In this document: positions 9,655-27,116 of the stretch, piece after piece | Layout of the letters: each line of letters begins with the position of its first letter | How positions within the stretch are numbered: the stretch's first letter is position 1 | Assembly (NCBI GenBank): GCA_017409025.1 | Contig: JAFQTN010000006.1 | Span: 1-45,487, forward strand | Direction of reading: 5' to 3' | From: Bacilli bacterium | Lineage (GTDB): Bacteria > Bacillota_I > Bacilli_A > RF39 > UBA660 | Length of the DNA: 45,487 nucleotides | Made by a program: the position numbers and the translations under genes | Notes under the pieces: model-generated | Seen by the model: only the letters and a program-made list of their open reading frames with translations | Database searches by the model: none | Told to the model about the DNA's origin: nothing

Positions 9655-9865
9655 CCTCTTTTCTTTATATAAAAATAAAAAGGTGGAACAATAAAAGGAC
9701 GAACTAGTCGCGGTACCACCTTTCTTTATAACTAATGTTATACTCTCAAAACTTTAACGCAGTTAACGATTAAAACTCTAAGGGTGAATTCATATACTTT
9801 TATCTGTTAGTATCTCACCATCACTAACTCTCTTAAAGATAAATTTATGTATACTACTACTTCCT
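9655..9865 (-). promoter_or_regulatory. T-box riboswitch (tRNA-Phe) of pheST
   Basis: This is a canonical, full-length T-box. On the minus strand are an AGTAGTA loop-E strand, an AGAGAG motif, and a distal hairpin GTTAGTGATGGTGAGATACTAAC-like loop (spread over about 9812-9834). The specifier loop contains GAA-TTC-A, with the TTC (Phe) codon at 9786-9788. The T-box sequence GGTGGTACCGCG follows. Its UGGU bulge (9715-9718) matches ACCA of a tRNA with discriminator A. The terminator pairs AAAGGTGG (9716-9723) with CCACCTTT (9679-9686), followed by a T-run, and excludes the antiterminator. Uncharged tRNA-Phe should cause readthrough into pheS. Confidence 0.93.
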
Positions 9866-9875
9866 TGTCATTGTT

Positions 9876-10658
9876 TTATTGATATGTTCTTTTGTGTCTA
9901 TCTAAATATCTTAATAATCTTTTAACATTATCATCTGGATTTTTTATAATATCTTCACGATAATATTCTGGGAATACTATTCTTTCCATACCATATCTAG
10001 CACAATATGCATTTATATAACTTTCAAGAACAGTCGTTAACGATGAGGTTAACATACGTTGAATATTATATTTGTTAAATACATTTTTATCTAATTTCAA
10101 TGCATGAGCCGGCTCTATTTTAACTAATTGCTCAGCTGTTTGTGAATTAAATTCATATGATGATAAGTTGCACGAAAATATACTATCTAACAAACTATTT
10201 GGTTCTTGATATTCAAATCTGTATTGTGGGGTTGTCGTTAACTTCTCGTATAATGTTTCTATCGTGCTTCGCATTATATAATAATTTGTATAAACTCCAA
10301 CGCCATTTTGAAAGTGAGTTAAGTTATCTAATGAATATATTGTTTTATCCGGAAGAAGAGCACCTGTTAGTAAGTCTTCACATAGGCGTATATCATTTTG
10401 GGCATATTCAGAAAATTTTATTTCTTCTGGATACATTTTACATATTGCTATTGCTATTTGTGGATTTTCCCTAAAATATTTGTAAGTTTTTTCTAAAATT
10501 CCTCTATCTTCTAGTTTTCCTTCTATTACTAACGCTTCAACAACTTTACATAGCAAATACTTATACATAATAGAACCATTATGATATATTCCATTTACCT
10601 TTGTTAAGTCTTGCATTTTTAACAATTCTTCTTCTGAAGGTATATATACTTTTTTCAT
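9876..10658 (-). CDS. Conserved-looking hypothetical protein, helical
   Basis: I do not recognise this 260-residue protein. It has no signal peptide or membrane segment and is predicted mostly helical. The N-terminal part contains ENPQIAIAICKMYPEEIK...NDIRLCEDLL, which faintly recalls DUF4116-type helical repeats (nP..a..a......l......nd..l...). The C-terminal end is basic (KRLLRYLDRHKRTYQ). No catalytic signature stands out. A strong AAAGGGGGGAAG ribosome site precedes the ATG. It lies 26 bases downstream of frr on the same strand and just upstream of the pheS leader, so it is probably cotranscribed with frr. Coding status is well supported by length, codon use and ribosome site. Confidence 0.75.
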   Translation of the reverse strand: MKKVYIPSEEELLKMQDLTKVNGIYHNGSIMYKYLLCKVVEALVIEGKLEDRGILEKTYKYFRENPQIAIAICKMYPEEIKFSEYAQNDIRLCEDLLTGALLPDKTIYSLDNLTHFQNGVGVYTNYYIMRSTIETLYEKLTTTPQYRFEYQEPNSLLDSIFSCNLSSYEFNSQTAEQLVKIEPAHALKLDKNVFNKYNIQRMLTSSLTTVLESYINAYCARYGMERIVFPEYYREDIIKNPDDNVKRLLRYLDRHKRTYQ

Positions 10659-23482: not shown

Positions 23483-25222
23483 TTAATCTCTAATTTTAAT
23501 ATGTGTTTCTCTTAATTGTTTTTCAAATACTTCTCCAGGACATCCCATCATAGCGTCTGCTCCATTTGCTCCAAGTGGGAATGCAACCATTTCTCTGATG
23601 TTTTCTTCGTCTTTTAATAACATAAGAATCCTATCAATACCAGGAGCCATTCCTGCATGTGGAGGTGCTCCATATCTGAATGCTTCATATAATGATGGGA
23701 ATTTAGATTTAACTACTTCTTCATCATATCCAGCAATTTCAAAGGCTTTCTTTAATATTTCTCTATTATGGTTTCTTACTCCACCTGATGCCATTTCATA
23801 TCCATTACATACAAAATCGTATTGGTAAGCTAAGATATCTAATGGATTTTTATTATTCAATGAATCTAGTCCACCTTGTGGCATTGAGAATGGATTATGA
23901 GAGAATTCTACTGTTCCTTCTTCTTCGTTTTCTTCATAGAATGGGAAGTCATTAACAATACAGAATTCATATTTTGATTTATCGATTAAGTTTAATTCTT
24001 CACCTAGTTTTATTCTAAGTTGTCCCATTAATTTAGCACATTTTTTGTTATCGGCAATTATAAATAATACATTACCAGTTGCTAGTGATAATCTTTCTTT
24101 TAATTCAGTTCTAACTTCGTCAGACATAAATTTATCTAAAGATGATTTGAAAGTCATATCTTCATTTACTTTGATATAACCTAATACACCACCTAAGTTT
24201 TTCATATATTCTTCCATAGTTTTAAACCATGAATTTGATTTATCTACACTTTCTACTTTTATTCCTCTTATAGTAGTATCTTTAAATGGTTGGAAATCTA
24301 TTTTTGATAAGATATCTGTTAGTTCTTCAATTACTAGTGGATTTCTTAAATCTGGTTTATCTGTTCCATATTTTAATAGTGATTCACGATATGGAATTCT
24401 TTTAAATGGAAGTGCACTTACTTCATATTTACCAAATTTAGTAAAGACATCGTGGAATACTTTTTGTCCTACTTCATATACATCTTCCTCTGTTGCAAAT
24501 GACATTTCAAAGTCTAATTGATAGAATTCTCCATAAAGTCTATCACTTCTTGGGTCTTCGTCTCTAAAGCATGGTGCAATTTGGAAATATCTATTAAATC
24601 CAGATACCATTAATAATTGTTTGAATATTTGTGGTGCTTGTGGTAATGCATAAAATTTACCTTTAAATTTTCTCGATGGGACAATAAAGTCTCTTGCTCC
24701 TTCAGGTGATGTTGCTGTGATTATTGGCGTTTGTATTTCTGTAAAATCTAAACCTTTCATTGTACTTCTGATAAAATCTATTACTTGACTTCTAAATAGA
24801 ATGTTATTATGAACTGCTTCATTTCTTAAGTCTAAATATCTATATTTTAATCTAGTATCTTCAGTAGATTCTTTAGAACGTGCTATTTCAAAAGGTAGAA
24901 TATTTTCACATTCACCTAAGATTTCAAGTGATTTGATGCTAACTTCAACTTCTCCTGTTTTCATATTAGGATTAATCATATCATCAGATCTTTTTTCTAC
25001 GATACCTGTAATAGTAACTGTACTTTCTCTATTGATATTTATATATTTATCTACTTCTTCACTTATTAATTGAACAATACCTGTTTCATCTCTTAGGGTA
25101 ATAAATAATAAACTTCCTAAATTTCTAATAGAATTTACCCATCCAGCTAATCTAATTTCTTTTCCTACATAACTTTTGTCTACATTTCCACAATAGACAC
25201 TTCTGTAAATATTTTCTTTCAT
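23483..25222 (-). CDS. aspS: Aspartyl-tRNA synthetase
   Basis: The 579-residue class IIb synthetase has an N-terminal OB anticodon-binding domain (about 1-110, with VRLAGWV-like KEIRLAGWVNSIRNLGSLLF). The core shows motif 2 (FRDEDPRSDR) and motif 3 (GAPPHAGMAPGIDRILMLL), with the GAD insertion between. The bacterial-type GAD insertion separates it from archaeal/short forms. GatCAB is not in the window, so discriminating versus non-discriminating status cannot be judged. AAGGAGTG precedes the ATG. It leads the operon with the ClpX-like and TtcA-like genes and is preceded by an unusually compact T-box leader. Confidence 0.96.
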   Translation of the reverse strand: MKENIYRSVYCGNVDKSYVGKEIRLAGWVNSIRNLGSLLFITLRDETGIVQLISEEVDKYININRESTVTITGIVEKRSDDMINPNMKTGEVEVSIKSLEILGECENILPFEIARSKESTEDTRLKYRYLDLRNEAVHNNILFRSQVIDFIRSTMKGLDFTEIQTPIITATSPEGARDFIVPSRKFKGKFYALPQAPQIFKQLLMVSGFNRYFQIAPCFRDEDPRSDRLYGEFYQLDFEMSFATEEDVYEVGQKVFHDVFTKFGKYEVSALPFKRIPYRESLLKYGTDKPDLRNPLVIEELTDILSKIDFQPFKDTTIRGIKVESVDKSNSWFKTMEEYMKNLGGVLGYIKVNEDMTFKSSLDKFMSDEVRTELKERLSLATGNVLFIIADNKKCAKLMGQLRIKLGEELNLIDKSKYEFCIVNDFPFYEENEEEGTVEFSHNPFSMPQGGLDSLNNKNPLDILAYQYDFVCNGYEMASGGVRNHNREILKKAFEIAGYDEEVVKSKFPSLYEAFRYGAPPHAGMAPGIDRILMLLKDEENIREMVAFPLGANGADAMMGCPGEVFEKQLRETHIKIRD

Positions 25223-25224
25223 TT

Positions 25225-25381
25225 TTTCACTCCTTATTCTTAAAAAAAGAACACGTCAAGTTTATTTATAAGGACGGATATTATCCGCGGTGCCACCTTA
25301 TTTCACTTACGTGCTCTTAAATTTTTATATTAAATTGTCTAGTTTCATTTGTTGTTTATCTGTCACTAATAAACAGAAACT
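25225..25381 (-). promoter_or_regulatory. Minimal T-box riboswitch (tRNA-Asp) of aspS with ultra-short Stem I
   Basis: The T-box core AAGGTGGCACCGCGG (about 25285-25299) and its partner CCGTCCTT are clear. Its bulge UGGC (25292-25295) complements GCCA, as expected for tRNA-Asp with discriminator G. From the predicted start near 25381 only one small hairpin precedes it: AGTTTC/GAAACT and TGTTTAT/ATAAACA stems around a 9-base loop TAGTGACAG that shows GAC, an Asp codon, followed by A. There is no AGAGAG motif or distal Stem I loop. The terminator pairs AAGAGCACGT (25309-25318) with ACGTGTTCTT (about 25246-25255), followed by seven T, and encloses the T-box core. That geometry is unusual. Confidence 0.8.
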
Positions 25382-25387
25382 GATATT

Positions 25388-25415
25388 ATTATATCATTAT
25401 TTTTTACAATGTCAA
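25388..25415 (-). promoter_or_regulatory. aspS leader promoter
   Basis: TTGACA (25410-25415) and TATAAT (25388-25393) are 16 bases apart on the minus strand, just after the stop of the upstream exported-protein gene. The predicted start near 25381 fixes the 5' end of the T-box leader. Confidence 0.75.
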
Positions 25416-25418
25416 TAA

Positions 25419-26270
25419 CTATTCTGTACCTGCTGATGAGAATACACCAGTTATACCAGTTCCTTCAGGCCCTGTTGATACAGTTAATCTTGCTGCGAAT
25501 GCTCTTCCGCTATCTTCAAGTGTTTGATCTTCGTGTGTTTCCATAATCCAAGTTACAATATGATAAGTTACTTCACTTGGAGTTGCTTCATCGATTGCTT
25601 TGGCTAAATTTTTATTGATACCAGTTAAAACAATAGGTTCTTTTTTTAATTCATCAAAATTTTCTTTTTTAATCCATTCGCCTGTATTTTCATCTTTTTC
25701 ATATTTTATAGATTTTTTATTATTTTTAGGATTAGTATATTCATATGTAACATATCTATTATCAATTATTTGAGTAGCACTAATTACTTCATTAAATTGT
25801 TTTGTTTCTTCGTCATATTCTAATACTTTATAGTATAAATTTTCAAATGTATTTACTGCTGGATCTAATGTTATATATAATGGTAGTTCATTTCCTGTAT
25901 TAGGATTTTTTACAGTAAATGTATAAACACTACAGATTTCATTTAAATTATCATCTATACAAACTGTTCCTTCAGTTATTAATTTATCACTATCTTCGGA
26001 TTCTTTATATGGCTTTAAAAATTCACCATTTTTATTTACTCTTCTACTAGCTATATCAACATATTCTTCGATTGATGGAATTATGTTAGTCTTAATTAGT
26101 GAAGCATCTTCTTCTAAATCAATTTTAAACTCTGCAGCTGATGCTGTTACAGAATTGTCTGCTGTGATGCTTGCTGAGAAATATGCAAACGTTGAACCTA
26201 CTCCAATTAAAATTATTAAAGCTATTGCTATTATAATTCCAAATAATGTTTTTTTCTTATTATTATCCAT
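25419..26270 (-). CDS. SipW-type (TasA-like) exported protein
   Basis: The 283-residue protein has a short basic N-terminus, a long hydrophobic signal segment and the GSTFAYFSASI cleavage region typical of SipW-dependent substrates such as TasA and camelysin. The mature part is a beta-rich domain. It carries the C-x8-C motif CIDDNLNEICSVYTFTV shared by two other genes in the window, a charged central insert with many Lys and Glu (about 175-220), and an ITWIMETHEDQ-like late strand (YHIVTWIMETHE). No SipW peptidase is encoded nearby. The start is placed at the second ATG (26270), because AAGGTAGG lies too close to the first. Its promoter matches that of the next upstream paralogue. Likely extracellular fibre or matrix subunit; inferred. 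Confidence 0.8.
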   Translation of the reverse strand: MDNNKKKTLFGIIIAIALIILIGVGSTFAYFSASITADNSVTASAAEFKIDLEEDASLIKTNIIPSIEEYVDIASRRVNKNGEFLKPYKESEDSDKLITEGTVCIDDNLNEICSVYTFTVKNPNTGNELPLYITLDPAVNTFENLYYKVLEYDEETKQFNEVISATQIIDNRYVTYEYTNPKNNKKSIKYEKDENTGEWIKKENFDELKKEPIVLTGINKNLAKAIDEATPSEVTYHIVTWIMETHEDQTLEDSGRAFAARLTVSTGPEGTGITGVFSSAGTE

Positions 26271-26293
26271 ATGTATCATCCTACCTTATATTA

Positions 26294-26393: not shown

Positions 26394-27116
26394 TTATGCA
26401 CCAACATTGAATGTTGCTGTTAGTTGGTGTTCATATCCAGAATCAGCAAATGTTAAAGTTCCTTGGAACACAGAACCCATTTCTGGATTATTAGAGTTTG
26501 GATTTGCAGTATCTTTTTCTACTTCATCTAAGTATACTACGAAGTATAATTCTTCAGTATCATCAGCACCAACAGTAATGTTTCCTAATTCTACATACTC
26601 ACCTACAACTGATTCTATATCTTTTACATTATCAGTTAGTGTTCCGTGAGCAAAACTACCTTCAGGACCTGTAAGATCAAGATATTTTAGGTTAACAAAA
26701 CCAGTAGCACCTGCTGTAGAACCAGCAGTATTTACTGTTGTTGTTAATGTTCTACTTAATGTAAGATCATTTGAACCACTATTTACGATTGTTGCTTTAT
26801 ATACCGCACAAACTTGTAATCCGTGAGAATCAACACATCCAGCTTTGTTTAAAGCATATAATAAATTAGTGTTATTAGTATCTGTTGCACCTTCTACAGC
26901 TACTTCAGGATCCATAGGGATTAATGTATTAGCTGATGTTGGTGAAACTTGGTGTAATGATAATGTTGCATTGAATTCATATGCTTGTAAATCAACAGTA
27001 TTTGTTGCTGTTGCACTTGCAGAGAAATACGCAAATGTAGCACCTATTATTGCAACTACTAGTGTAGCTACACCTACAACTCCTAAAAATATTCCACTTC
27101 CTCTTCTATTTTCCAT
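26394..27116 (-). CDS. SipW-type (TasA-like) exported protein
   Basis: The 240-residue protein begins MENRRGSGIFLGVVGVATLV, followed by VVAIIGATFAYFSASATATN. This is a basic n-region, hydrophobic core and the AYFSA motif of SipW-processed proteins. The mature domain is Thr/Ser/Asn-rich and low in charge. It contains C-x8-C in CVDSHGLQVCAVYKATI and a late ELYFVVYLDEVE strand, followed by GTLTF, as in the TasA/camelysin fold. AAAGGAGG precedes the ATG, a strong ribosome site suited to an abundant structural protein. It has its own promoter and terminator. Its base composition is noticeably less AT-rich than its neighbours, fitting high expression. Confidence 0.82.
   Translation of the reverse strand: MENRRGSGIFLGVVGVATLVVAIIGATFAYFSASATATNTVDLQAYEFNATLSLHQVSPTSANTLIPMDPEVAVEGATDTNNTNLLYALNKAGCVDSHGLQVCAVYKATIVNSGSNDLTLSRTLTTTVNTAGSTAGATGFVNLKYLDLTGPEGSFAHGTLTDNVKDIESVVGEYVELGNITVGADDTEELYFVVYLDEVEKDTANPNSNNPEMGSVFQGTLTFADSGYEHQLTATFNVGA

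Follow-up and report, generated by a model that had tools for sequence, protein, structure and literature searches.

How small can a T-box be and still read a tRNA? The question is raised by the leader of aspS in a contig from an uncultured Bacilli bacterium of the gut (JAFQTN010000006.1, positions 1 to 45,487; these 45,487 nucleotides are the window). An earlier note, made from the sequence alone, had proposed an ultra-short T-box here, with the Asp codon in a terminal hairpin loop and a terminator folded around the antiterminator.

The aspS leader, its promoter and its Stem I hairpin

The leader lay at 25381-25242 on the minus strand, between aspS (23483..25222, minus strand), encoding a bacterial-type aspartate--tRNA ligase of 579 aa (NCBIfam NF001750, 708 bits), and a TasA-like gene ending at 25419. 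It was ~140 nt long, terminator included, with a ribosome-binding site (AAGGAG, 25235-25230) outside the terminator stem. The minus strand carried a TTGACA-16-TATAAT promoter (25388..25415) with a 12/12 match, comprising TTGACA at 25415-25410, a 16-nt spacer, TATAAT at 25393-25388 and a TG before the -10 box. The earlier note had used this promoter to set the leader start near 25381, and the perfect boxes bear this out; the start predicted from their position (~25381) is the first base of the first helix, with the promoter 7 nt 5' of the Stem I hairpin. Among relatives, 25 compact Asp leaders had promoters matching at 8-12/12, situated 4-20 nt 5' of Stem I. On the far side of the promoter, 25422-26279 and 26397-27116 are neighbouring genes for two proteins that look secreted and whose N-terminus is TasA/camelysin-like (a signal anchor, then TFAYFSAS); neither had a Pfam match.

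The earlier note had allowed space for a single hairpin of ~40 bases before the T-box core and had placed GAC-A in its terminal loop, and folding agreed on both points. A 41-nt hairpin (25341..25381, minus strand) was both the MFE and the centroid fold. It comprised an outer helix AGUUUC/GAAACU (25381-25376/25346-25341), an inner helix UGUUUAUU/GAUAAACA (25375-25368/25360-25353), a 6-nt bulge on the 3' side (25352-25347) and an apical loop AGUGACA (25361..25367, minus strand), in which the specifier GAC (25364-25362) is followed by a conserved A (25361). The loop has the 9 bases of the earlier note by that note's count, and 7 nt if a U-G pair closes it. Taken alone, the 41-nt hairpin had a folding z-score of only -1.6, so it is conservation and covariation that carry the argument. 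Similar double hairpins enclosing GACA occurred in 38/5000 dinucleotide shuffles of the leader and in 0/33 canonical T-boxes of relatives.

A long Stem I with distal motifs was absent from the window leader, whose 41-nt Stem I stands directly at the promoter, and no K-turn was recognisable at the base of Stem I in the aspS leaders. Stem I is followed by an A/U-rich linker of 22 nt (25319..25340, minus strand) with possible weak AAUUU/AAAUU pairing. Reading of the sequence revealed no Stem II or IIA/B element in this linker, nor elsewhere in the genus. An element ACAAUUUA..UAAAUU recurs between Stem I and Stem III in genera g1 and g109 (25340-25319 in the window) and may be a last small trace of Stem II or IIA/B; covariation cannot decide on it because every pair is A-U.

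Compact Asp and Gly leaders in related genomes

The same leader was found before aspS in six sister species of the genus. Their alignment showed AGUGACA and most of the discriminator to be invariant and Stem I to be variable, with five pairs changed on both sides, both Stem I helices included; 95% of cells paired, compared to ~40% in slid controls. We built a covariance model (R1) from the seven same-genus leaders and ran it on 386 genomes of the family, the genomes compared being mostly metagenome bins of uncultured Bacilli. The compact build recurred in nine further genera, bringing the set to 26 leaders in 10 genera, all 26 with GAC-A in the apical loop; a script located them except for L089 (UAUAAUGUGACAGGAUA), which was read by eye. 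Weaker R1 matches in the family (45-60 bits) were mostly canonical GAC T-boxes and were left uncounted. A class-wide search yielded one clear compact case beyond the family, L379, situated before hisS-aspS, with the loop CUGACAA and a GGUGAU/GGAG similar to the GAUGA/RAG of the compact glyS leaders described below. Genes 3' of the compact Asp leaders encoded bacterial AspRS or archaeal-type AspRS (NF003483), or formed hisS-aspS operons.

Helix sequences varied between genera, with outer helices such as UUCCU/AGGAA, AUUUGUU/AACAAAU and UUUACUU/AAGUAAA. When arms were swapped between leaders (fixed windows, one leader per genus, 11 genera including one from another family), own arms paired better than swapped arms, with 0/10000 permutations for the inner helix and 10/10000 for the outer. 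A conserved GAC and covariation of both helices, by which the earlier note had proposed to check its reading, are thus present in related leaders, within the genus and across 11 genera. The pairing is not uniform: the outer helix of L006 paired poorly, and the closing pair of the apical loop was mismatched in some relatives. On a reading of the sequences, a IIA/B-like element lies 3' of Stem I in compact Asp leaders of g160, g143, g164, g101, g23 and g145 (L075, for instance, has CGGCUAAGUACCG with UACUUA, and L080 has CGGGUAGUUCCG with AACUAU), and none was seen in the window's genus, g73, g109 or the glyS set. Two long leaders from other genera of the family, L016 and L128, have an apparent AAC (Asn) specifier and a UGGC bulge, L016 preceding an AspRS paralog and L128 another gene; this is possibly a case of an Asn-sensing T-box on a non-discriminating AspRS.

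A second compact set in the same family precedes glyS, usually directly, otherwise with another gene between. It was revealed by the pattern AGTGNNNA...GGTGGNACC, which is out of frame with the motif AGU-GAC-A and missed the window element; 24 leaders were collected, then 14 more. Their pattern is AGYGAUGAC-stem-(U-GGN-A)-stem-RAGCU, followed by Stem III GAUUCU..AGAAU and a UGGA bulge, in ~95 nt to the end of the antiterminator, and includes a GAUGA/RAG that may be compared with a K-turn at the base of Stem I. The apical triplet was GGA in most, GGC in 7, GGU in 2 and GGG in 1. All four pairs of the apical helix showed double changes, and the covariation score of the whole structure was 0.293 (shuffled mean 0.145; slid values at most 0.107). 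Both tRNA-Gly of the host genome (UCC and GCC) have U73 and fit the UGGA bulge. The same genome has a compact Gly T-box of its own (G000:C22:44110-44205; L309, L344), with the loop CUUGGAAA and a UGGA bulge, preceding glyS and a 275-aa ORF; this ORF, which lies before glyS, had no Pfam or NCBIfam match. The compact glyS leader L310 (G157:C46:14593-14683) has a 5-nt loop, A-GGC-A, the size reported for Class III ileS. Beyond the family, the top match to a second model, R2, was examined and proved to be a canonical glyS leader with a long Stem I (L311). Between the Asp and Gly sets, apical triplet and bulge base shift together with the regulated synthetase, which is the behaviour required of a specifier and a discriminator contact.

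The T-box core and the enclosing terminator

Downstream of the linker, Stem III (25302..25318, minus strand) reads CAC-GUAA-GUG with a 5' RRRNG (AAGAG) and a 3' AA, giving AAGAG-CACGUAAGUG-AA, and its stem pairs are invariant in the genus. Alignment to RF00230 placed the antiterminator at 25268..25301 (minus strand), with helices A1 (AUAAGG/CCUUAU) and A2 (GCGGAU/AUCCGU); the T-box bulge UGGCACC (25295-25289) and the AGGUGGCACCGCGG core are exact, and one A1 pair covaries between A-U and G-C among same-genus leaders. The clear core and the match of its UGGC bulge to tRNA-Asp GCCA, both claimed previously, fit the genome's own tRNA-Asp, which has anticodon GUC, discriminator G73 and a 3' GCCA complementary to the bulge. 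The match of the leader to Rfam RF00230 scored 38.9 bits (E 2.1e-7), below the gathering cut-off of 93 bits, because the model expects the long Stem I that is missing here; the low score reflects how the model is built, not the mechanism. The leader thus has the sequence features by which a T-box is recognised: a UGGN bulge matching the tRNA, a conserved specifier, Stem III motifs and an alternative terminator.

That terminator (25242..25318, minus strand) does enclose the antiterminator, as had been suggested: 25318-25306 pairs with 25260-25247 in a stem of 10 bp plus AAG/CUU, and its 3' arm is followed by a 7-U tract ending at 25242. In the window leader the downstream arm paired with the Stem III region at -17.6 kcal/mol and with the 3' strands of A1/A2 at -5.8 kcal/mol, so the canonical layout, in which the terminator is built from the A1/A2 3' strands, does not apply. 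Terminator plus antiterminator (OFF) gave -28.8 kcal/mol for the whole leader, and Stem III plus antiterminator (ON) gave -20.3 kcal/mol. All 62 compact leaders that could be scored (25/25 Asp, 37/37 Gly) had this layout: the best partner of the strand preceding the U tract was the Stem III region, not the A1/A2 3' strands. Because the 5' arm of the terminator (25318-25306) overlaps Stem III, the two are mutually exclusive; the antiterminator can persist within the terminator loop, and the terminator and antiterminator helices are able to form together. Enclosing terminators were also called in 28/55 canonical T-boxes of the same family and 9/20 of other families, some of these calls being narrow, and the enclosing terminator is therefore not specific to the compact architecture. 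The pheS T-box of the window adds a third kind of terminator layout to this genome: its terminator arm, GUUCCACCUU, is paired to the T-box strand itself (AAGGUGGUAC).

A candidate minimal tRNA-Asp sensor and its relation to known T-box classes

The sequences themselves show the hairpin, the conserved specifier and the covariation, a tRNA that matches, the promoter, the layout of the terminator and the link to the gene, and we consider it very likely that the aspS leader is a minimal T-box attenuator that senses tRNA-Asp. Binding of the tRNA, a response to its charging and the order of events are what we infer from them. The nascent RNA would fold one short Stem I, whose apical loop would present GAC-A for pairing with the tRNA-Asp anticodon, GUC. 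If the tRNA is uncharged, base pairs would form between its 3' GCCA end and the antiterminator's UGGC bulge, and Stem III would dock as a gauge of aminoacylation. Stem III would thereby be locked against the antiterminator-NCCA helix, blocking the terminator, since the 5' arm of the terminator is the Stem III strand, and aspS would be transcribed. With charged tRNA-Asp the discriminator could not close, Stem III would be absorbed into the long terminator stem and transcription would stop. As an elbow-binding distal Stem I and a Stem II S-turn are both absent, the tRNA is probably recognised through nothing more than codon-anticodon and NCCA pairing. There is real doubt about the affinity and speed of the predicted switch, because the short Stem I of Class III T-boxes hardly binds tRNA without Stem II (PMC7583486), and against a minimal switch it also counts that the terminator is not in direct competition with the antiterminator helices.

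Alternatively, the leader might be a degenerate T-box in which the core was inherited, Stem I decayed and the tRNA response was lost, leaving a constitutive attenuator. Long Stem I and Stem II are indeed both gone, and a long Stem I is reportedly required in transcriptional T-boxes, as is Stem II where Stem I is truncated (PMC7583486). However, pairs have changed in a compensatory manner, the loop GAC is conserved across 11 genera, RRRNG-Stem III-AA and UGGC are intact, and a parallel Gly set shows synonymous codon changes. Covariation, conserved GAC, intact core and Gly set indicate selection for tRNA reading, making decay an unlikely explanation. Somewhat less likely again, another GAC immediately after the hairpin (CUAGACAAUUU, 25339-25337) could serve as specifier, lying in a linker or a collapsed Stem II, which would make the loop GAC incidental. 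Most leaders of the genus, and those preceding hisS in g109, do have GACAAUU 3' of Stem I, but this site reads AACAAU in L002 and L074 and is missing in L006 and other compact genera, whereas every compact Asp leader has the loop GAC and the apical loops of the Gly leaders between them display each of the four Gly codons. A transcript begun farther upstream could supply a normal long Stem I, and readthrough RNA is conceivable where the upstream gene ends at 25419 with no obvious terminator; yet the sequence there is coding and varies by species (in most it is TasA-like, but L006 has the end of another gene there), and a perfect promoter stands 7 nt before the hairpin, with promoters at the same place in relatives, so that this is very improbable. 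Attenuation by ribosomes stalling on the Asp codons of a leader peptide has next to nothing to recommend it: the window leader has a 7-codon ORF with one Asp codon (ATG AAA CTA GAC AAT TTA ATA TAA, from 25348), but its start codon is missing in L003, L004, L005 and L017 (ACG), L002 lacks the Asp codon at the corresponding place, and the T-box core explains enough. Relatives' leaders and promoter data thus led us to reject the downstream GAC, the distant transcription start and the leader peptide.

A minimal tRNA-Asp sensor must be set beside the four T-box classes so far defined (PMC10482949, PMC7583486). With Class I (Bacillus subtilis tyrS; pheS of the window) the aspS leader shares Stem III, the antiterminator, the UGGN bulge, a terminator and an aaRS gene 3' of it. 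Class I T-boxes, however, extend ~190-220 nt to the antiterminator; their Stem I is long, with the distal motifs AGAGA and GGUGA, and elements of Stem II are present. The pheS T-box (9692-9880; RF00230 score 119.7) is canonical, as the earlier note had it. Class II T-boxes (B. subtilis glyQS) lack Stem II, have a long Stem I and are Gly-specific (PMC10482949, PMC7583486); like them, the window leader is transcriptional and has a single-stranded linker in place of Stem II, and its sister set is specific for Gly. The long Stem I, elbow-binding distal motif and internal-loop specifier of both classes are lacking in the aspS leader.

Closest in Stem I is Class III (Nocardia farcinica ileS, 'ultrashort Stem I'), which likewise has a short Stem I that lacks the elbow-binding double T-loop, a specifier followed by A in the apical loop, and a discriminator that reads NCCA with Stem III. 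An apical-loop specifier is already known from these actinobacterial ileS T-boxes, as cited from Sherwood 2015 in a passage of PMC7583486. Class III needs Stem II, acts mostly by translational control and has a loop of 5-6 nt (PMC10482949), whereas the window leader has an apical specifier with a transcriptional terminator and neither Stem II nor translational control, and compact leaders have loops mostly of at least 7 nt and specificity for Asp or Gly. A transcriptional T-box without distal Stem I and Stem II is thus covered by neither the Class II nor the Class III description. Distal Stem I is held to be necessary in transcriptional T-boxes for capturing tRNA before the polymerase reaches the terminator (PMC7583486, PMC10482949), and conserved transcriptional T-boxes lacking both domains make this rule directly testable.

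The compact leaders also resemble class I covariance model hits with truncated Stem I in TBDB, which were rescanned with a class II model according to passages of its account (PMC7778990); sequences of the compact kind may therefore sit there unannotated, and those passages describe no compact Asp/Gly architecture. Such T-boxes are probably under-counted, since Rfam searches at the cut-off miss the window element. Their small size (~140 nt for aspS, ~95 nt for glyS) suits structures, kinetics and synthetic tRNA sensors.

Of the different minimal architecture proposed earlier, the part that stands is a tRNA-Asp T-box that displays its specifier in a terminal loop, is too short for a canonical Stem I and has a terminator around its antiterminator, with GAC conserved and both stems covarying across 11 genera; a terminal-loop specifier as such was already known, and the enclosing terminator is shared with canonical T-boxes. 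What is new, as set apart by secondary accounts, is the combination: the specifier is apical, distal Stem I and Stem II are both missing, control is by transcription termination, and the specificity is for Asp and Gly. The sequences support a new T-box variant well. We think it fairly probable that this is a fifth architecture beside the four known, without elbow-binding Stem I or Stem II, reading only an apical codon and the NCCA end, passing Stem III into the terminator and serving at least Asp and Gly in uncultured Bacilli, and that it may mark the minimum RNA for tRNA sensing.
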